Assembly (NCBI RefSeq): GCF_006442545.2 | Contig: NZ_CP083952.1 | Coordinates: 4,627,501 to 4,691,500, forward strand | DNA: 64,000 nucleotides | Source of the DNA: Mesorhizobium sp. B2-1-8 | GTDB taxonomy: Bacteria > Pseudomonadota > Alphaproteobacteria > Rhizobiales > Rhizobiaceae | Direction of reading: 5' to 3' | Shown here: positions 41,984 through 53,234 of the stretch, in pieces | Position numbering within the stretch: the first letter of the stretch is position 1 | Layout of the letters: each line of letters opens with the position of its first letter | Program-made: the position numbers and the translations under genes | The notes under the pieces: model-generated | Seen by the model: the letters and a program-made list of their open reading frames with translations, nothing else | Databases searched by the model: none | Told to the model about the DNA's origin: nothing

Positions 41984-44029
41984 TCAAATCCTGATCCCGA
42001 ACCTGATCCCATCATAGATGGCGGCGTGGATGTTGCGGGAGGCGACCGCATCGCCGATGCGGAACAACACGAAGCCGCCTTCGGGGTTGCGTGGTGGAAA
42101 AATGTCGCCTCCATTGACCAGACGTTCGTAGTCGACCGCGCCACCGTTCTTCGACAGCGGCTTCAGCGTCAGATAGAGGTCGTCGAGCGGCGCGGTGCCG
42201 TGCTCGACCACCACCTGGTCGACGCGCCGCTCCCCGCGCCAGCCATCGGCGAAGTCCGAAGCGAGTTCCGCGATCAGTTGATTGCCCTCGCGCCGCACCG
42301 AGCGCAGGCGCGTGTTGATGGTGACGGTGACGCCTTTTTCGTGGAAAGCCCTGACATAGGGTACGTGGTTCATGCCGCCCATTTCGGGGGCGAAGAACCG
42401 CTCCGGCGACACCAGTTCCAGCTTCGAGCCGCTGTTGGCGATCAGTTCGGCCGCGCCCATGCCTTGATGGCCGCCATTGTCGTCATAGAGCAGCACGTTT
42501 TCGGCCGGCTTGACGCTGCCGGCCATGATGTCCCAGCTCGAGGTGACGAGATTGTCGCCGGAGGCCAGCGGCGGGTTCTGCGGCAGGCCGCCGGTGGCGA
42601 TCACCACGACATCGGGCGCCAGCGCCAGGACGTCGTCCTGCTCGGCCCAGGTATCGTAGCGGATCTCGACGCCGAGCCGGTCGAGTTCGGCCAGACGCCA
42701 GTCGATGATGCCGATCAACTCCTTGCGGCGTGGGTTCTGGGTCGCCAGACGGACCTGGCCGCCGGCTTGTGATGAGGCTTCCAGGATCGTCACCTGATGG
42801 CCGCGCTCGGCCGCGACGCGCGCCGCCTCCAGTCCGCCGGCGCCGGCGCCGACGACGACGACTTTCCGTCTAGGCCCTTCCGTCTTGACGATGATATGCG
42901 GAATATCGGCCTCGCGGCCGGTCGCCGCATTGTGGACGCACAGTGCCTCGCCGCCCTCGTAGATGCGGTCGAGACAATAGGTTGCGCCGACGCAGGGGCG
43001 GATTTCGTGCTCGCGGCCCTCCATCACTTTCTTGATGATGTGCGGATCGGCGATGTGGGCGCGCGTCATGCCGACCATGTCGAGCTTGCCGGTGGCGATC
43101 GCATGGCGTGCGGTGGCGACGTCGGAAATGCGCGCCGCGTGGAAGGTCGGGAATTTCGTCGCCGCCCTCACCTCGCCCACGAAATCGAGATGCGGCGAGG
43201 ACCGCATGCCGGTCACCGGGATGACCTTGGTCAGTGCCGCGTCGGTCTCGATCGAGCCACGGATGATGTTGAGGAAGTCGACCTTGCCGGAGTTTGCGAG
43301 CCGCCTGGCGATCTCAATGCCCTCCTCCTTCGACAGGCCTTTTTCGAAATCCTCGTCGGCGACCATGCGGATGCCGACGACGAATTTCTCACCGACCGCC
43401 GCCCTCACCGCATCGAGCACCATATTGGTGAAGCGCAACCGATTGTCGAGCGAACCGCCATACTCGTCGTCGCGATAATTGGTGGCAGGCGACCAGAAGC
43501 CATCCATCAGATGACCGTAGGATTCGAACTCGATGCCATCTAGGCCAGCTGCCTGGCAGCGCTGCGCGGCCGATGCATAGTCGGCGACGATGCGCTCGAT
43601 ATCCCACTCCTCTATGGTCTTGGGGAAAGCACGATGCGCCGGCTCGCGCACCGGCGAGGCTGACAGCACCGGCAGCCAGTCGGCCTTGTTCCAGCCGGTG
43701 CGGCGGCCAAGATGGGTGATCTGGATCATCACCTTGCAGTCATGCTCGTGGCAGGCGTCAGTGAGTTCGGCCAGCCATGGAACGATGCGGTCGTCATAGA
43801 CATGCAGATTGCCGAAGGCGGCCGGGCTGTCGCGCGAAACGATGGCCGAGCCCGCGGTCATGGTCAGCGCCATGCCGCCCTTGGCCTTTTCGGCATGGTA
43901 GAGCCGATAGCGCTGCTTCGGCATGCCGTCCTCCGAGTAGGCAGGCTCGTGGCTGGTCGACATCACCCGGTTCTTCAGCGTCAAATGCTTGAGCTGGTAG
44001 GGTTGGAGAAGCGGGTCGTTGCTGATCAT
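41984..44029 (-). CDS. FMN/FAD iron-sulfur oxidoreductase, N-methyl amine demethylase type
   Basis: A 681-residue two-domain flavoprotein: N-terminal Old-Yellow-Enzyme barrel (to about 340), a short cysteine region, and a C-terminal NAD(P)/FAD-binding half ([17 protein letters not shown] near 390). It belongs to the trimethylamine dehydrogenase / dienoyl-CoA reductase group. The motif [19 protein letters not shown] and [16 protein letters not shown] resemble dimethylglycine and N-methylproline demethylases. The iron-sulfur region has Cys346, Cys352 and Cys364, but Ala349 where most relatives have the second cysteine. It is convergent with a small membrane protein and divergent from queF; its partner electron carrier is unknown. 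Confidence 0.85.
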
Positions 44030-44086: not shown

Positions 44087-44548
44087 ATGATCGATACCAA
44101 AGCCCTCACCCAGCTCGGCACCCACGTCGAGACGCCACAGAGCCCCGAAGCTGCGGTCCTGGAAACCGTGCCGTTTTCGCGCGGCGACGGACCGCCGGCG
44201 ATCGTGCGTTTCACCGTCCCGGAATTCACCTCGCTCTGTCCGGTGACCGGACAGCCGGATTTCGCCCATATCGTCATCGACTACGCCCCCGATGCTGCCC
44301 TCGTGGAATCGAAGTCGCTCAAGTTGTTCATGACCTCGTTTCGCAACCATGGCGCTTTCCATGAAGACTGCACGGTGATGATCGGACGGCGCATCGTGGC
44401 CGCGACCAAGCCGCTTTGGTTGCGCATAGGCGGCTATTGGTATCCGCGCGGCGGCATTCCGATCGACGTGTTCTGGCAGACCGGCGCTCCGCCCGAAGGC
44501 GCCTGGCTGCCGGACACCGGCGTTGCGCCCTATCGCGGGCGCGGCTAG
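44087..44548 (+). CDS. queF: 7-cyano-7-deazaguanine (preQ0) reductase QueF
   Basis: A 153-residue unimodular QueF that reduces the nitrile of preQ0 to preQ1 with NADPH in queuosine biosynthesis. The nucleophile Cys51 ([13 protein letters not shown]) forms the thioimide; Glu74 in VESKSLKLF and His92/Asp94 in FHEDC complete the site. Length matches the short QueF class. ATG at 44087, with AAGGAAA upstream, begins [11 protein letters not shown]. No other queuosine gene is adjacent. Confidence 0.95.
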
Positions 44549-45773: not shown

Positions 45774-46883
45774 TTAGTCTCCGAAAATGGCAATCGGCGC
45801 GTTGAGTTGGGAGCGTTCAGGCTTGACACCGAGCCCTGGGATCTGCGGGATGCGTATATGCCCGTTCTCGATCACGATCGGGTTTACGGGATCCGTATGC
45901 CCTTCGATGTACTCCTGCGCGATCCAGGCTCCCTCAAAACGTCTCGGCTCGACTGTGGCGGCGAGGTGGACGCATGCCGCGGCGATGACGTCTCCGCCCC
46001 AGGCGTCGTCGCAGCTGTGCGGGAGAGATCGTATCGCACACAGGTCGCGGACCGTGGCCATCTTGGTAAGGCCGCCAAGGCGGGTGACCTTCAATCCAAA
46101 TCCGTCCGCGATACCTGACGAAACCGCCCGCAGCACCGCATTCAAATCCTCGGTATTCTCATCGAGATAGATCGGATGGGTAACGCGTCCCTTGAGACCA
46201 GCGACTTCCTCCATGGTGTTGCAAGGCTGTTCGAACACGAACGGGATTGCCTGGCAAAGCCGATCGATGTGCAGTGCCGCGGCAGCGGTCAGGCCGCGAT
46301 TGGCGTCGACGGCTATCCGGGCCTTGAAGCCAACCGCCTCCCATACTTTGTGCACAGTGGCGACGTCTTGTTCGAGATCCCGCCCGCCGATCTTGATCTG
46401 AAGCCGTGGATATCCGGCATTGACCTTGTCGGCGGCAATACGCGCGGTCTCGTCCGGAGCACCGACGATGGTCGAGTAGTAGGACGGCACGCGATCGGTG
46501 AGCGCACCGCCGAGAAGTGTTGAAACAGGGACGCCCAGCCGCTGGCCGGCGAGGTCTAGGAGGGCTATATCCAAGGCTGCCTTGGCATAGTTGTGACCGT
46601 TCAGCCGTTCGTCCATTTTTTTGGCGAGGCGGCGCATGGACGCCGTGTCCTCGCCGACGAGTCCAGGCGCTATTTCAGCAATTGCCGCTCTTGCGCCAAG
46701 AGCATGCTGGGGCTGGTAAACAGGGCCGATCGGGCAAGTCTCGCCCCAGCCTGATAGTCCATCCTCGGTGGTCACTTCAACCAGCGTGCTGTCCAAGTTC
46801 TGCACGGTATCGCTGGCCATCCGGTAGGCACCGCCTTTGACAGGCAGAAGCACCTTATAGACTTTGATTGACTTGATACGCAT
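45774..46883 (-). CDS. hpbD: proline-betaine / 4-hydroxyproline-betaine epimerase (HpbD-like)
   Basis: A 369-residue enolase-superfamily enzyme of the muconate-lactonising subgroup. It closely follows the HpbD pattern of Pelagibaca: WGETCPIGP near 46-54, GHNYAKAALDIA, catalytic Lys164 (LQIKIGG) and Lys265 (GLKVTRLGG), metal ligands Asp193 (VDANRG), Glu218 (FEQPCNT) and Asp241 (YLDENTED), and the PHSCDDAWGGD block. HpbD epimerises or racemises proline-derived betaines at C2. Last gene of the leftward betaine unit, 52 bp after the demethylase. Other dipeptide-epimerase functions are less likely because of the PHSCDDAWGGD motif. Confidence 0.85.
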   Translation of the reverse strand: MRIKSIKVYKVLLPVKGGAYRMASDTVQNLDSTLVEVTTEDGLSGWGETCPIGPVYQPQHALGARAAIAEIAPGLVGEDTASMRRLAKKMDERLNGHNYAKAALDIALLDLAGQRLGVPVSTLLGGALTDRVPSYYSTIVGAPDETARIAADKVNAGYPRLQIKIGGRDLEQDVATVHKVWEAVGFKARIAVDANRGLTAAAALHIDRLCQAIPFVFEQPCNTMEEVAGLKGRVTHPIYLDENTEDLNAVLRAVSSGIADGFGLKVTRLGGLTKMATVRDLCAIRSLPHSCDDAWGGDVIAAACVHLAATVEPRRFEGAWIAQEYIEGHTDPVNPIVIENGHIRIPQIPGLGVKPERSQLNAPIAIFGD

Positions 46884-46935
46884 TCAGACATTAGCCCCGT
46901 TCATGCCTTGCCCGGTCTGGCGCCTTTCGCAATCG

Positions 46936-48918
46936 TCAAAGATCAAGCGCCACCTTGCGCCCGTCATGGATGGCAAATGCCGCCTGTCTGGAGGCGGTAC
47001 AGTCGCCGATGGAGGTATGCATAATTCCGCGCCTTTCGAGCTCGATGGACAGGCTGTCCTGGGCCATGCTGGTGGCGGCGAAGACCAGCGCATCGGCTTC
47101 GATCTCCTGCTCGGTTCCGTCGAGCAGCGAAGCGATCCTGGCCGCCTTGCCATCCCAATGAACGACGGCGCTCTCGGTCACAAACCGCACGCGCAGTTTG
47201 GCGAGCGCCCGGCGCAGCGGCGCGTCGACGGCCATTCGCTGAAGCTCTTTGCCAACCAGGGCGTCCGGTGTCACGAGCGTCACATTGTGACCGTCCTCGG
47301 CGAGTTTCCAGGCGGTGCCGCACCCTTTCCAATTCCCGCCATCGTCCAGCAACAGAACATTTTTTCCCGGCCTCGCCTCACGGGCCATCACCGCCTCGGC
47401 CGACAGCACCGGCCCGCCGCCCGGAATGCTGCCCCAGTGCGGCAAGGCCCGCTGGAAAGCGCCGTCCGGCGGCATCGAGCCGGTCGCGACGATGACATGA
47501 TCCGCGCCTTCGCGCTCGACATCGTCGGCTTCGACATACTGCCCGTAGCGGATGTCGACCTGAAGCTGGCCGAGCTGGCGCTCGTACCAGTCGATCAGGT
47601 CCAGAATCTGGGCACGGCGCGGCTGCAGTCCGGCAAGACGGAACTGCCCGCCGAGGCGGTCGGATGCTTCGGCCAGTGTCACGCGATGACCGCGCTCGGC
47701 CGCGGCGCGCGCCGCTTCGAGACCGGCCGGCCCGCCGCCGACGACCAGCACGCGCTTCGGCTGTGCGGCCAGAGCGAAGCGATCACCGCCCCACTCCCAT
47801 TCCCGCCCCGCGGAAGGATTGATGACGCAGCTGATCCAATAGTCGCGGCTGCGCCGGCCCCAGCACATCTGGTTGCAGGACAGGCAGCCGCGAATGTCTT
47901 GCGGCCGGCCGGCGGCAGCCTTTGCGGCCAGATGCGGATCGGCGATCTGCCCGCGCACGATGGAAACGAGGTCGGCGCGACCTTCGCTCAACACGCTCTC
48001 GGCGTTTTCGGGCGTGCGGATATGGCTCTCGGCGGTGATCAACGCATGACGCACGGTGGATTTGAGCACGGACGCCAGGTCGGCACCAAGCTTCTCCGGA
48101 TAAACAAAGGTCGGCATGATCTTGTAGAAGTCGAAGTAGGAGCCCGTTCCGCAAGTCACATAGTCCATCAAGGCGTCGCGGTCGTGGAGGTCGATTATCT
48201 CGGCCAGCGCTTCGCGCTTCAGCGCCACTTCGACTTCGGGCTCATCGTTGATCGCAAGACCGATGATGAAATCATCGCCGCATTCCCGGCGAATCCTGGT
48301 CATCACCTCACGGCTCATCCGAGTGCGGTTTTCAAGGCTGCCGCCCCATCGGTCGTCCCGGCGGTTCGACCAGGGTGTCCAGAACTGGTCCAGCATCGAA
48401 TGGTACGCCGCCCAGACCTCGACGCCGTCGAAACCGGCCTCGCGGCAACGGCGCGCCGCCTGGACAAAGCCGTCGATCGTCTCTTCAATCTCGGCTTCGA
48501 ACATCCGATGCGAACCGTCAGAATCGTGGTAGCTCGGCAGGCCCGAAGGCGACCAACCGGCATGAAACGAGTTGTCCGCGTCAGCGTGCTGACCGACATG
48601 GTAGAGCTGCTGGATGGCGATGGCGCCGTTGCCGCGGATTGCGTCAGTTACTTTGCGAAAATGTGGAACCACGCGGTCATCGGAAGGGCTGAAATTGCCG
48701 CGGGTAAGCACGGCGGCCTGGTGCACGGGCATCGGCTCGACCACGATCATGCCGGCGCCGCCGATGGCGCGTTCCGCGTAGTAGCCGACATGCCGCGCGG
48801 TCGGCAGCCCCTCTACCGCCATATTGGCGGTATGGGCTCCGAACACGATCCTGTTGCGTAACGTCTTGCCGCGCAACATTGCCGGCTCGAACAGACGCTT
48901 GAAGACCCGTTCAGACAT
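46936..48918 (-). CDS. FMN/FAD iron-sulfur N-demethylase (betaine-type)
   Basis: A 660-residue flavoprotein of the same family as the gene at 41984: Old-Yellow-Enzyme barrel (about 1-340), complete iron-sulfur site CLSCNQMC (about 341-348) with the fourth cysteine near 360 (WISCVINP), then an NAD(P)/FAD domain with VVGGGPAGLEAARAAAERG near 385. It is placed between a betaine epimerase and an ABC binding protein, so removal of an N-methyl group from an N-methylproline-like intermediate is the likely job. The ATG at 48918 is preceded by AAAGGAGAGAGGG. The message upstream contains a strong stem-loop. Confidence 0.86.
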   Translation of the reverse strand: MSERVFKRLFEPAMLRGKTLRNRIVFGAHTANMAVEGLPTARHVGYYAERAIGGAGMIVVEPMPVHQAAVLTRGNFSPSDDRVVPHFRKVTDAIRGNGAIAIQQLYHVGQHADADNSFHAGWSPSGLPSYHDSDGSHRMFEAEIEETIDGFVQAARRCREAGFDGVEVWAAYHSMLDQFWTPWSNRRDDRWGGSLENRTRMSREVMTRIRRECGDDFIIGLAINDEPEVEVALKREALAEIIDLHDRDALMDYVTCGTGSYFDFYKIMPTFVYPEKLGADLASVLKSTVRHALITAESHIRTPENAESVLSEGRADLVSIVRGQIADPHLAAKAAAGRPQDIRGCLSCNQMCWGRRSRDYWISCVINPSAGREWEWGGDRFALAAQPKRVLVVGGGPAGLEAARAAAERGHRVTLAEASDRLGGQFRLAGLQPRRAQILDLIDWYERQLGQLQVDIRYGQYVEADDVEREGADHVIVATGSMPPDGAFQRALPHWGSIPGGGPVLSAEAVMAREARPGKNVLLLDDGGNWKGCGTAWKLAEDGHNVTLVTPDALVGKELQRMAVDAPLRRALAKLRVRFVTESAVVHWDGKAARIASLLDGTEQEIEADALVFAATSMAQDSLSIELERRGIMHTSIGDCTASRQAAFAIHDGRKVALDL

Positions 48919-48938
48919 GCACCCTCTCTCCTTTAACG

Positions 48939-48971
48939 TGCGACCGGCACCTCAGAGAGGTGCCGGTCGCA
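48939..48971 (-). other. perfect stem-loop between binding-protein and demethylase genes
   Basis: A 14-bp perfect stem (48940-48953 with 48957-48970), extended by one A-T pair, with AGA loop. The T-tract (48974-48978) lies on the plus strand, so it is not an intrinsic terminator for the leftward message; such a structure after a binding-protein gene usually protects the upstream mRNA and lowers downstream expression. Confidence 0.75.
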
Positions 48972-48993
48972 GCTTTTTGGCGGTCTTGGGGAG

Positions 48994-50643
48994 TTAGGCA
49001 TCCAGCCAGACGTTCTGGAGATCTATTTCATAGGTCTGGTGCATGCCGTAGTTCTTCACCTTCTTGTTCATGTGGCAGTAGAGCTTCTGCCAGAACGGCT
49101 GGATGATGACGCCGGAGTCCTGCAGGATCTGCTCGACATCCTTCATGACCTCCTTGCGCTTGGCGACATCACTCAGGGCCAGCGCCTGCTTGAGCTTGGC
49201 ATCGAATTCCGGATTGGAATAGGCCGTCTCATTCCAGGCCTCGCCCGTACGATAGCCGAGCGCCAGCACCTGCACGCCGAGCGGGCGCATGTACCAGATC
49301 GTCATGGAATAGGGATATTTCGTCCAGTCGTTCCAGAAGGTCGAGCCAGGCAGAACGGTACGCTTCACCTTTATACCGGCTTCACGCAACTGGCCGGCGA
49401 TCGCGTCGCCGGTGTTCTTCTGCCATTCGTCCTCGACGGTGATCAGTTCATGCTCGAAGTTGGCCTGTCCAGCGTCGGCCATCAGCTTCTTGGCGCCCGC
49501 CACGTCCCGCGTCTTCTTGGGCAACGGATAGTATTCCGGATGGATCGGGCTGACATGGTGGTTTTCGCCCACCGTACCGCGGCCATTATAGCCGAGTTGC
49601 AGGACGGCGTTGTTGTCGACAGCCATCTGCAGGGCGTTACGGACCCGCTGATCGTCGTAGGGCTTGTGCGTGATGTTGGTGCGGGCAACCAGCGTGGTCG
49701 CCGTCGCGACTTCCGATTTCACGAGGTTCATCTTGTCGAGGATGTCGATGAAATCGGCCGGCGTTTCGAAATCGACGTCGATCTCGCCTGAGTCGAAAGC
49801 GCTCACCGTGGCGTTGAAATCGGTGCCGTAGTCGATGAATTCGGCACCGTCGAGCGGCGCCTCGCCACCCCACCACTTGCCGTTCTCGCGGCGCTTGACG
49901 ACCGCCTTTGTCCCGACAGCGTAGGACACCAGTTCGAAAGCTCCGGTACCGACCGGCTTCTTGATCGGGTCGGCGCCGTCCTTGTCGAAGTCGCGATGCA
50001 CGACGAGCGCCGGATAGTCGGTGAAATTCGGGATGATCGAGATGTCGGGTTCGGAAAGCTTCAGCTTCACTGTGTGGTCGTCGACCTTGGTGATGGCGCC
50101 GTCCTTCGCCTTGCCGGTCTTGGCGTCGATCAGCGCGCCGACACGCGCGGCCATGGAATTACCGGAGGCACCCTTCTCGCACCAGCGGTTCAGATTGACG
50201 ATCACGTCGTCGGCGTTGAAAGCATCGCCATTGTTCCAGGTGACGCCCTTGCGCAGGTGCAGTGTATATTCGGTGGCGTCGTCGTTGATGTCCCAGCTTT
50301 CCAGCAGCACCGGCTCGAAAGTGAACTGGCGGGTATAGCGAACGAGCGGCTCCAGCCAAGCGCGGGTGACGTTTGCCATCTCTGTCCAGTCATAGGTGCG
50401 CGGATCCTTCTGCGCCTTGACCGACATCGCGACATGCAGCGTTCCGCCCTTCTTCGGCTCATCGGCAAGAGCCTTTGTCGGAACCGCGAGCCCGATCATG
50501 CCATAGGCAACAGCCGTTGAAGCGCCGAAGGCGCTCGCCAGCGCCAGGAACTCGCGCCGGTCCATGCGGCCAGCGCGGGCCTCTTCGGCCATCGCCTCGA
50601 TGGCGGCCGGGACGCGATCGCCGTTGCTTCTAAAAATCGTCAT
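48994..50643 (-). CDS. ABC transporter substrate-binding protein, peptide/DppA family
   Basis: A 549-residue family 5 extracellular solute-binding protein. After about 25 charged residues comes a twin-arginine-like export signal ([16 protein letters not shown], about 31-46) and cleavage near ALADEP. The mature part begins [11 protein letters not shown] and carries the family block [21 protein letters not shown] (split as written at most family sites). Relatives bind peptides, betaine-like compounds or opines. No permease or ATPase gene is in the unit, so it must share one encoded elsewhere. ATG at 50643 follows GGAGAAAG. It lies between MttB-like and demethylase genes. Confidence 0.88.
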
Positions 50644-50688
50644 TTTTCTTTCTCCCATTGGTTCCGTCGGGTCTTCGCCCGTTTTCTT

Positions 50689-52239
50689 TCAACTAACGCT
50701 GTCGGGCAATTTTTCCTCGCGCCGCGCGATCAAATCCTTGAGACCGTCGGCGATACCCTCGTCGAGTTTCGGCTCTTCATAATCGGCGAGCATGTTGCGC
50801 GCCTTCTCGCGGCCGCGCGTGTCGTGGTCCTTCGCCCCCTCCGCCTTCCATTGTTCGTAGGAGTTGAAGTCCATGATGCTCGGCATGAAGAAAGCCTTCT
50901 CGAAATGCTCGAGCGTGTGCTGGGTGCCGAGGAAATGGCCCTGCGGCCCGACTTCGCGGATCGCCGCCATCGCGTCCTTGAAATCGTCGAAAGGCAGGCC
51001 GCCCGCGTATTTGTACCAGCCGACGAGCTGTTCGCAGTCGGTGGCGAATTTCGAGTAACCGCAAGTGAGACCCGCTTCCAGCCAGCCGGCCGAATGCCAG
51101 ATGTAGTTGGCGCCGGCAAGAATGGCTGCATGCATCAGCATGTTCGCCTCATAGCCGGCCTGGGCATCGTTGAGTTTCGAGCCGACATGGAAGCCCGAGG
51201 TGCGCCACGGCAGTTTGTATTTCCGCGCCAATGCGCCCATCAGATACATCATCTGCGCGGCCTCCGGCGTGCCGCCCATCGGCGCGCCGGTCTTCATGTC
51301 GACCGTCACCATGAACTGACCGTAGATTTGCGGCGAGCCGGGGCGAATGAGCTGGGTCAGCGCCACGCCCGCAAGCGCCTCGGCGTTGACCTGCGCCACC
51401 GCGCCGACGGCGGAAGCCGAGGTGGAGGCGCCGCACAGCGCGAAAGGCGCCAGGATCAGTGGCTGATTGTGGCTCGCATAGACCCGCATGGCGTCGATCA
51501 TGGTGGCGTCCCACACCAGCGGCGAATTGCAGTTGGTGATCGCCACCAGCACAGGGTTGTCGCGCACGAATTCCTCGCCGAAGACGATGCCAGCCATCGC
51601 CATCGTGTCCTCGGCGCGCTCCTTCGACGTCACGATGCCCATGAACGGCTTGTCGGAATGTTTCAGCGCCGAGTGGATGATGTGCAGATGCCGCTTCGGC
51701 ACCGGTATCTCCATCGGCTCGCAGATGATCGAGCTCGACGAGTGCAGCGCGGGCGCCATATAGGCGAGCTTGTGGAAATTGTTGAGGTCGGCGAGCGTGC
51801 CGTAGCGCCTGTTGTTGTCGAGGTCGCGGACATAGGGCGCGCCATACATCGGCACGAAGATCGAGTTCTTGCCGCCGACGCGAACCGTGCGCTCGGGATT
51901 GCGCGCATTGAGCGTGAATTCCGGCGGAACCTTCGAGACCAGTTCCATCAGGAGCGCGCGATCGATGCGGACCCGCGTTTCCCTGACGTCGGCACCGGCG
52001 GCCTTCCACAAGGCAATGGCCTCGTCGTCGCGGAACTCGCAGCCGACCTCTTCCAGGATCGACAGCGATTCCTCGTGGATCAGTTCCACCGCCTCGTCCG
52101 GAACCATCTGGTACACCGGAATCTGACGGACCAGGGTTGGGAACGACGCGATCGGTGCCCCACGAAGCGCCTTGCGCCCGAGACGGCCACCGCCACGGCG
52201 ATGGGTTTGCTCGGTCAATTCAGCGGCCGGTGCGTTCAT
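50689..52239 (-). CDS. MttB-family (trimethylamine methyltransferase-like) protein
   Basis: A 516-residue protein of the trimethylamine:corrinoid methyltransferase superfamily (COG5598). The TIM-barrel blocks are evident: IHEESLSILEEVGCEF, GAPYVRDLDNNRRYGT, NCNSPLVWDATMIDAM, and the C-terminal GPQGHFLGTQHTLEHFEKAFF. There is no in-frame amber codon, so it is a non-pyrrolysine member; characterised ones demethylate glycine betaine, proline betaine, carnitine and similar quaternary amines onto a corrinoid protein. First gene of the leftward betaine unit, divergent from a LysR regulator. No corrinoid protein gene is nearby. ATG at 52239 follows GGAGGC-type bases. Confidence 0.88.
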   Translation of the reverse strand: MNAPAAELTEQTHRRGGGRLGRKALRGAPIASFPTLVRQIPVYQMVPDEAVELIHEESLSILEEVGCEFRDDEAIALWKAAGADVRETRVRIDRALLMELVSKVPPEFTLNARNPERTVRVGGKNSIFVPMYGAPYVRDLDNNRRYGTLADLNNFHKLAYMAPALHSSSSIICEPMEIPVPKRHLHIIHSALKHSDKPFMGIVTSKERAEDTMAMAGIVFGEEFVRDNPVLVAITNCNSPLVWDATMIDAMRVYASHNQPLILAPFALCGASTSASAVGAVAQVNAEALAGVALTQLIRPGSPQIYGQFMVTVDMKTGAPMGGTPEAAQMMYLMGALARKYKLPWRTSGFHVGSKLNDAQAGYEANMLMHAAILAGANYIWHSAGWLEAGLTCGYSKFATDCEQLVGWYKYAGGLPFDDFKDAMAAIREVGPQGHFLGTQHTLEHFEKAFFMPSIMDFNSYEQWKAEGAKDHDTRGREKARNMLADYEEPKLDEGIADGLKDLIARREEKLPDSVS

Positions 52240-52318
52240 GGAGCCTCCATCCCTTCGATCCAGGTCAACTTAGCGAGGTGAAATACAGCTGTGACGCTGG
52301 AAAATCCTGATCTCTTGT

Positions 52319-52333
52319 ATAAGCTGTGCTTAT
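52319..52333. promoter_or_regulatory. LysR-type box T-N11-A
   Basis: ATAAGC-TGT-GCTTAT is a perfect inverted repeat with the T-N11-A spacing of LysR-type regulators. It overlaps the start codon of the LysR gene itself and lies 80 bp from the MttB-like gene. Confidence 0.65.
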
Positions 52334-53234
52334 GCGAAACCTGCGCCATCTCCTGCCCTCCGCCGGCAGCCTGATCGTCTTCGAGGCGGCGGGCCGGCTG
52401 TCGAGCTTCACCGCCGCCGGGCGCGAGCTCGGCATGACCCAGGCTGCCGTTTCCTATGCGGTGCGCGGCCTGGAGGAGCAGCTCGGCGCCCAGCTGTTCC
52501 AGCGCCGCCATCGCCAGGTCAGCCTGACCGAGGCCGGCGAGCGCTTCCATGCCGACGTCTCGCTCGGCCTTTCCCACATCCGCAAGTCGGCGGAGGATCT
52601 GCGCCTGCAGGCGACCGGCGGCCATGTGACGCTCGCCGCCTCGACGGCCTTCGGTTCGTTCTGGATGATGCCGCGCCTGCAGCGGTTCCGCGACGAGCTG
52701 CCGGGCATTGACCTGCGCATCCAGACCGGCGACCGCGATCTCGACATTATCGCCGAAGGCATTCCGCTCGCCGTGCGCGGAGGCGTGCCACGCGACTGGC
52801 CGGACTACCATTCGTTATCACTCTCCGACGAAGAGATTTTTCCGGTCGCGGGTCCCAGCTATCTGACGAAATTCGGCCGGCCTGAGACCGTGGAGCAACT
52901 GGCGACACACCGCCTCATTCATCTGGAGGAGCCCTATCGCGAGGCCCCGAACTGGGACGAATGGTTCCAGTCGGCCGGCGCCAGCCTCCGCAATGCGGAG
53001 CGTGGCTTGCGCATCAATGACTATGCGATCGTGATCCAGGCGGTCATGGAAGGGCAAGGAATCGCGCTCGGCTGGCGCCACCTTGTCGAGCGGCTGCTGT
53101 CGACCGGGCTGCTGGTACCGGTAACGGACCACGTCATGAAGACGGGCACCGCGTTCTACGTCATCTGGCCGAAGAACCGTGAGCTCTCGGACAATGCCCG
53201 CAAGGTAAGAGACTGGCTGGTCGCGCAGGCGTAA
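52332..53234 (+). CDS. LysR family transcriptional regulator (GcvA type)
   Basis: A 300-residue LysR regulator with N-terminal helix-turn-helix (about 6-65: IVFEAAGRLSSFTAAGRELG, TQAAVSYAVRGLEEQLG) and a C-terminal effector domain. Its group (GcvA-like) is typical for LysR genes beside catabolic units. It is divergent from the MttB-like gene, so it is the likely activator of the betaine unit, with the T-N11-A palindrome at its own start codon suggesting autorepression. ATG at 52332 gives MRNLRHLLPSAG; a GTG at 52326 is possible. Confidence 0.92.
   Translation: MRNLRHLLPSAGSLIVFEAAGRLSSFTAAGRELGMTQAAVSYAVRGLEEQLGAQLFQRRHRQVSLTEAGERFHADVSLGLSHIRKSAEDLRLQATGGHVTLAASTAFGSFWMMPRLQRFRDELPGIDLRIQTGDRDLDIIAEGIPLAVRGGVPRDWPDYHSLSLSDEEIFPVAGPSYLTKFGRPETVEQLATHRLIHLEEPYREAPNWDEWFQSAGASLRNAERGLRINDYAIVIQAVMEGQGIALGWRHLVERLLSTGLLVPVTDHVMKTGTAFYVIWPKNRELSDNARKVRDWLVAQA

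Follow-up and report, generated by a model that had tools for sequence, protein, structure and literature searches.

Rhizobia encounter proline betaines, compounds of plants and legumes, both in the surroundings of roots and within them, and rhizobial use of plant proline betaine is exemplified by the stc stachydrine genes of Sinorhizobium. In Paracoccus and Pelagibaca, (hydroxy)proline betaine is degraded through a pathway comprising HpbD, HpbA and a Rieske pair, the latter carrying out the first demethylation. We know of no link between HpbD and MtpB, the MttB-superfamily enzyme of the acetogen Eubacterium limosum. MtpB is a proline betaine methyltransferase (PMC8604678, PMC12478193) that demethylates its substrate onto a shared corrinoid protein (PMC8604678). 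Furthermore, in Ruegeria pomeroyi MtgC and MtgD function in the demethylation of glycine betaine as well as in methionine synthesis, and the several PF06253 paralogues of such bacteria are proposed to demethylate other methylated compounds via MtgC, with proline betaine being named for Eubacterium (PMC12478193). Here we analyse a 64 kb stretch (the window; contig NZ_CP083952.1, hereafter C1, positions 4627501-4691500) of the 6.87 Mb, two-contig genome of Mesorhizobium sp. B2-1-8, in which the gene of an MttB-superfamily methyltransferase (MttBw) shares an operon with that of an HpbD-like epimerase. We propose, with a probability of roughly 0.52, that corrinoid methyl transfer, and not a Rieske oxygenase, is the first demethylation in the proline-type betaine catabolism encoded by this locus.

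The MttB-HpbD locus compared with described systems

The locus resembles the Hpb system of Paracoccus and Pelagibaca in its HpbD-like protein (58% full-length identity to the annotated hpbD of Paracoccus pantotrophus), in its HpbA-like flavoprotein OYE1 (61% over 676 residues to the annotated HpbA, N-methyl-L-proline N-demethylase, of the same species) and, in its fuller relatives, in a pyrroline-5-carboxylate (P5C) reductase, and departs from it in having MttB in place of the Rieske pair. With the stc genes it shares, in M. waimense, a Stc2-type Rieske protein and an HpbA-like flavoprotein beside MttBw, whereas the best Stc2-type match of the window genome reaches 56% and is unlinked. MtpB, to which we liken MttBw by superfamily and description and not by sequence, differs in stemming from an anaerobic acetogen. 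The genome matches the MtgB-MtgC-MtgD(-MtgE) system of Ruegeria (PMC12478193) in a PF06253 enzyme, a stand-alone MtgC, pterin-binding, MetF-type and DUF1638 proteins and an activase, and in the host being an aerobic alphaproteobacterium with several PF06253 paralogues and one MtgC; unlike the Ruegeria enzyme, whose tested substrate is glycine betaine, MttBw forms a separate clade linked to HpbA-like and sometimes HpbD genes. The features of the locus are as follows.

45774-46883, minus strand: HpbD-like epimerase (MR_MLE_C 139 bits, MR_MLE_N 75 bits)
46936-48918, minus strand: OYE2, old yellow enzyme (OYE)-type FMN/Fe-S flavoprotein, probably accessory (Oxidored_FMN 194 bits, plus Pyr_redox_2)
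48994-50643, minus strand: SBP, family-5 ABC solute-binding protein (SBP_bac_5 233 bits)
50689-52239, minus strand: MttBw, MttB-superfamily methyltransferase (PF06253 669 bits)
52240-52331, no strand: putative control region, the 92 intergenic bases between the divergent LysR and MttBw genes
52332-53234, plus strand: divergent LysR-family regulator (HTH_1 and LysR_substrate)
41984-44029, minus strand: OYE1, HpbA-like flavoprotein in a separate transcription unit
44087-44548, strand opposite to the operon: QueF-like gene between OYE1 and the operon

The four leftward genes which the first-pass annotation had placed behind a LysR regulator are real: their open reading frames (ORFs) are intact and uninterrupted, their families are assigned by profile match, and they are spaced by 45, 75 and 52 bases, with 52240-52331 probably serving as the control region (the SBP start at 50643 was picked by codon usage, the ORF list giving 50658; the LysR start was taken as 52332, the ORF list giving 52326). 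The same annotation had noted the lack of Rieske, corrinoid and permease genes, and at the locus this holds: tblastn of the window found no corrinoid-protein, P5C-reductase or Stc2/HpbB-type Rieske remnant (best E 0.47; best E 1.3 for the Stc2-type oxygenase query), and the genes scanned or inspected at 38-60 kb, part of them with Pfam, included no ABC permease or ATPase. For the genome it does not hold, since one MtgC and one betaine-type Rieske protein with a reductase are encoded, and the absence of a corrinoid protein as a genome-wide statement was rejected.

MttBw matches PF06253 as a full-length family member (model positions 1-500) and, again over the full length, the structures PDB 4yyc (528 bits), 9yce and 2qne (359 bits each; titled glycine betaine methyltransferase/putative methyltransferase) and 7xcm. 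Scoring 286 bits where the pyrrolysine trimethylamine equivalog demands 525, it is of the non-pyrrolysine type, and it is likely a corrinoid methyltransferase for a quaternary amine. The PF06253 profile retrieves seven MttB-type genes from the genome, MttBw among them; MttBw is 48% identical to the MtgB of the same genome and 53% to a second group of HpbD-adjacent MttB proteins (clade b). In the unrooted tree, MttBw, clade b and a ProXVW-adjacent clade are split from MtgB and the other paralogues (support 98/99), the branching order among the three not being settled; the rooted drawing is untrustworthy because the intended outgroup sits on one very long branch. The epimerase has its best solved relatives in PDB 4e8g/4izg/4j1o (473 bits), followed by 2pmq and 4h2h (402 bits each); its Lys, Asp/Glu and Trp blocks, which we take to be active-site residues, align with 4e8g/4izg/4j1o, and it is predicted to be an HpbD-like 4-hydroxyproline betaine 2-epimerase/proline betaine racemase.

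Neighbourhoods of HpbD and of MttBw

HpbD was found in 13 of 394 family genomes (E<=1e-95), in 2 of 385 class genomes (E<=1e-100), the window genome being counted in both, and in 40 plasmid records; the family sample was preferred because the class-wide one was too broad. The 34 HpbD loci examined comprise the window locus, 13 from further genomes and half of the plasmid records (20 of 40, those left out being 6 Cereibacter, 5 Leisingera, 3 Shinella, 2 P. pantotrophus, 2 P. yeei, 1 Rhizobium and 1 Rhodobacteraceae), with two Aminobacter loci in the set being near-copies. An MttB gene (at least 60% identity to either reference) lies within 10 kb of HpbD, centre to centre, in 22 of the 34 loci (10/14 genome and 12/20 plasmid loci), a betaine-type Rieske gene (at least 50%) in three (0/14 genomes, 3/20 plasmids), and no locus has both by these criteria. 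As a control, the window genome has 12 further epimerase-family matches, and each of them is more than 10 kb away from all seven MttB genes. The MttB-HpbD pairing is more than chance.

Six of the 22 pairs involve MttBw and 16 involve clade b, in which MttB stands at most 0.1 kb from HpbD in 9/16 loci and at most 1 kb in 12/16. The clade-b loci are spread across Alphaproteobacteria and include Cereibacter, Leisingera, Neorhizobium galegae, Alisedimentitalea and Mesorhizobium, and plasmid pB of Cereibacter sphaeroides 2.4.1 has an MttB-HpbD pair. DAO- and ALDH-family genes lie near nine of the 16 clade-b loci, eight of the nine also having a DHDPS-family gene, a set known from hydroxyproline degradation. 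Among the borderline cases, L161 of Alisedimentitalea, entered as MttB only, contains in addition a VanA-type Rieske gene, whose product aligns with the HpbB-type enzyme at 26% identity over 87 residues; L138, counted as neither, has a 38% Rieske piece, and L141 has a 54% Rieske-reductase match. In Phyllobacterium zundukense (L153, counted as neither), HpbD is accompanied by DHDPS-, ALDH- and DAO-family genes, and an MttB gene lies ~18 kb off on the same plasmid.

Seen from the methyltransferase, the picture differs. Across the best 80 of 170 confirmed MttBw loci (nearly all Mesorhizobium; 10/80 stretches below full flank length), SBP adjoins MttBw in 80/80, and the further neighbours are OYE1 (64), OYE2 (10), HpbD (7) and HpbA (2). 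HpbD and OYE2 are therefore both accessory, the function of MttBw is not tied to HpbD, and HpbD as its obligatory partner was rejected; the survey of MttB-HpbD neighbourhoods suggested by the first-pass annotation thus found the pair recurrent, and in two clades, from the side of HpbD but infrequent from that of MttBw.

The MttBw operons themselves indicate a corrinoid partner. An MtgC copy occurs at 7/80 loci (two of them, L046 and L059, broken by contig ends), and the copies in L027, L037 and L073, measured over their full length, are 97.8-99.1% identical to the housekeeping MtgC encoded elsewhere in the window genome; such near-identical copies inside MttBw operons naturally point to MtgC as the cognate corrinoid partner. 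Where the operon copy is uncut (five genomes), two or three MtgC matches occur per genome; the other queried genomes mostly have one. One internal stop was counted in the operon copies of L027, L049 and L052; in L027 a 227-residue stop-free frame spans the domain. Two Aminobacter plasmids carry the order LysR-MttBw (89%)-SBP (80%)-MtgC-HpbD (70%)-OYE2 (84%)-P5C reductase, the MtgC copy of Aminobacter sp. SR38 being 95% identical to that of the window genome. In a genome of another genus (G464), MtgC-SBP-OYE1-MttBw and OYE2-P5C reductase-HpbD lie on opposite strands, and in M. waimense MttBw-SBP-MtgC adjoins HpbA and a Stc2-type Rieske pair. Compared with the Aminobacter and G464 versions, the window locus is without MtgC and P5C reductase. 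A further plasmid stretch (L159, pOM4 of M. onobrychidis), which has no MttBw match, carries an SBP 78% identical to that of the window and an MtgC 95% identical to the Aminobacter one, beside type IV secretion genes.

The other MttB paralogues have surroundings of their own. Those at L017 (C1:3495901-3512000) and L018 (C1:3034000-3053900) adjoin a DAO/GCV_T (dimethylglycine dehydrogenase-like) protein and that at L019 (C2:279000-298900) an OYE-type flavoprotein, with ABC transporter genes also present in L018 and L019 (those of L019 named by eye); MttB plus a second demethylase is a recurrent layout in this genome. On plasmids of M. amorphae and Mesorhizobium sp. NZP2077 (L162, L163), a third MttB clade (54-56% to MttBw) stands directly behind ABC transporter genes for glycine betaine/proline; an Xaa-Pro peptidase gene is close by, and HpbD is absent.

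Corrinoid, flavoprotein and transport partners

The genome-wide search for corrinoid and activator proteins was productive, yielding one MtgC, one activase and MtgD-like and MetF-like proteins. The four B12-binding genes found with PF02310 comprise one MtgC-type, one methylmalonyl-CoA mutase and two radical-SAM genes, and hence no MetH was found by this search. MtgC (PF02310 and PF02607, motif DIHDIG) misses the curated cut-offs (211 vs 370 bits for MtgC_2, 172 vs 215 for pyl_corrinoid) and is therefore a relative, not a filed member. It is surrounded, at a distance of ~1.2 Mb from the window locus, by an MtgB-type gene (C1:3484720) and by genes for DUF1638, MTHFR-family (MetF-like) and Pterin_bind (MtgD-like) proteins and for the activase, the latter being the only RACo_C_ter match found in the genome; a homocysteine S-methyltransferase (MtgE-like) is encoded ~9 kb from the group. 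The MtgBCD-type set (MtgC, pterin-binding protein, MetF-type protein and activase) is complete in the genome, a similar gene group occurs in Paracoccus methylovorus, and MtgC is probably needed for methionine synthesis too. The interval C1:3475057-3493300 (L012, L016) reads as a split methionine synthase/betaine methyltransferase gene group in a genome seemingly without MetH.

The iron-sulfur flavoprotein of the operon, OYE2, had been taken for the demethylase, and here the first-pass annotation has to be corrected. OYE2 is 31% identical to the annotated HpbA of P. pantotrophus (vs 61% for OYE1) and has the Cys pattern C-x2-C-x3-C-x11-C, the pattern common to OYE1 and HpbA being C-x5-C-x11-C; it was rejected as the N-methylproline demethylase and, judged from these comparisons, is probably not the main demethylase. 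OYE1, which lies outside the first-pass coordinates (45774-52239), is nearer to HpbA and stands immediately beside MttBw in relatives (L097, L099, L101 and the G464 locus L165), and therefore appears the likelier enzyme for the second (N-methylproline-type) demethylation. It belongs to a sister group and is not HpbA itself, since genes of M. waimense and M. prunaredense reach 72-73% identity to HpbA. In the Fe-S region, OYE1 (41984-44029) and HpbA (L132, 428-2464) have three cysteines and OYE2 has four; the cluster or its ligands may therefore differ in the HpbA group.

From the gene content, homologies and neighbourhoods observed we infer substrate, methyl flow, transport and regulation along the following lines. 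The betaine would be brought in by the SBP, probably with a permease whose gene lies elsewhere, and HpbD would interconvert betaine epimers; MttBw would pass one methyl group to the Co(I) of the housekeeping MtgC, from which the MtgD-like protein would transfer it to tetrahydrofolate and the MetF-like protein would channel it to the C1 pool. Oxidative demethylation of the N-methylproline-type compound left by MttBw would follow, by OYE1 and perhaps by OYE2. A proline-type betaine as the substrate of MttBw is supported, though not proven, by the HpbA-like, HpbD and P5C-reductase neighbours, and methyl flow into methionine is suggested by the additional role of MtgC as core of the methionine synthase where MetH is lacking.

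As regards transport, the SBP has paralogues of 64% (C1:3035687) and 56% (C1:892431) identity in the genome, and behind the former stand genes for two BPD_transp_1 permeases, an ABC_tran ATPase, an MttB and a DAO/GCV_T protein. Downstream of the window operon lie two small same-strand genes (one of them DUF3828), the opposite-strand QueF-like gene and then OYE1; in locus L024 (14129-16613), the two small genes behind the MttB operon have between them two predicted genes with near-identical openings, arranged in tandem.

Rieske enzymes and competing explanations

Several observations weigh against corrinoid methyl transfer as the first demethylation. HpbD is absent from 73 of the 80 close MttBw loci; 9 of the 34 HpbD loci (4/14 genomes, 5/20 plasmids) have neither MttB nor a betaine-type Rieske gene nearby; MtgC is present in 14/14 HpbD genomes, also where no MttB accompanies HpbD, and its presence was rejected as a discriminator; the L028 genome, whose operon has no MtgC copy, nonetheless gives two MtgC matches; genome G628, with MttB beside HpbD, encodes a 74% Stc2-type Rieske protein elsewhere; and in M. 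waimense and M. prunaredense MttBw lies beside Rieske-pair genes with no HpbD in the stretch, so that the two routes can coexist. Moreover, while no Stc2-type protein was found in the window, the genome-wide Rieske search recovered three PF00848 proteins (the search did not extend to Rieske proteins of the VanA type), the best of which at C1:391489-392679 is 55-56% identical to HpbB/Stc2-type queries and adjoins a reductase (51% identity). This enzyme might itself perform the first proline-type betaine demethylation, with MttBw as a low-oxygen or minor alternative, and the side-by-side retention of the MttBw module and a Stc2-type Rieske protein in M. waimense would suit such an arrangement. 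We regard it as improbable, given that the enzyme is unlinked to HpbD or OYE1 and that its score to PDB 3vca (537 bits), which we take to be Stc2, is no better than that to 3n0q (543), the M. waimense Stc2-type oxygenase reaching 809 to 3vca; against the cut-off of the glycine betaine monooxygenase GbcA it scores 519 vs 670 bits. Furthermore, the Stc2-type query matched the 14 HpbD genomes (several of them drafts, and three between 83 and 94% complete) at 74% in one, at 56-58% in five and at no more than 37% in two, with no match at E<=1e-60 in six, and of the ten genomes with MttB within 10 kb of HpbD, four are without such a match, five are at 56-58% and one is at 74%.

A weightier alternative, which we rate as distinctly less probable than our proposal yet still serious, is that MttBw acts on a different quaternary amine, such as glycine betaine or some other plant betaine, and that HpbD and OYE2 are recent accessory genes of a separate pathway in a few strains. 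The many close loci with MttBw and SBP but without HpbD would be accounted for in this way, as would a family-5 SBP unlike the ProXVW-type betaine transporters found beside another MttB clade; on the other hand, HpbD, OYE2, P5C reductase, OYE1 and MtgC regroup around MttBw in different orders in Aminobacter and G464, the commonest neighbour after SBP is the HpbA-like OYE1, and the genome has a separate MtgB. That MttBw is inactive as a corrinoid methyltransferase (decayed, or of changed chemistry), as an operon without its own corrinoid protein and the absence of MtgC and P5C reductase relative to Aminobacter might hint, seems very improbable: the frame is intact, identity is 92-98% across the Mesorhizobium loci surveyed (89-91% in the five most distant), and the corrinoid protein MtqC serves several MttB-type enzymes in E. 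limosum (PMC8604678).

Taken together, the proposal already made in the first-pass annotation, that an MttB-type enzyme takes over the first demethylation from the Rieske enzyme, gains from the recurrence of MttB-HpbD neighbours in two clades, from MtgC standing between SBP and HpbD on the Aminobacter plasmids and from the four of ten genomes without a match to the Stc2-type query at E<=1e-60, and loses from HpbD and OYE2 being accessory and from the Rieske enzyme of the window genome; both replacement and substrate thus keep a conditional form. Corrinoid methyl transfer as the first step remains our preferred reading. Its wider form, in which MttB and MtgC would have replaced the Rieske enzyme as the first (hydroxy)proline betaine step in Alphaproteobacteria, in at least two MttB clades, with an O2-free reaction delivering methyl groups to folate and methionine, we advance more tentatively, and at somewhat less than even odds. 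The arrangement looks like one of known enzyme kinds in a seemingly unreported combination, no report of MttB with HpbD having been found in the open-licence literature searched (the primary HpbD and MtpB papers lie outside it).

If the proposal is correct, the first demethylation could run at the low oxygen of nodules, and the step would be B12-dependent, with a corrinoid protein common to it and to methionine synthesis. Moreover, it would provide a substrate and a pathway for two uncharacterised PF06253 clades of aerobic bacteria, an assignment that would go beyond the general proposal made in the Ruegeria paper (PMC12478193).

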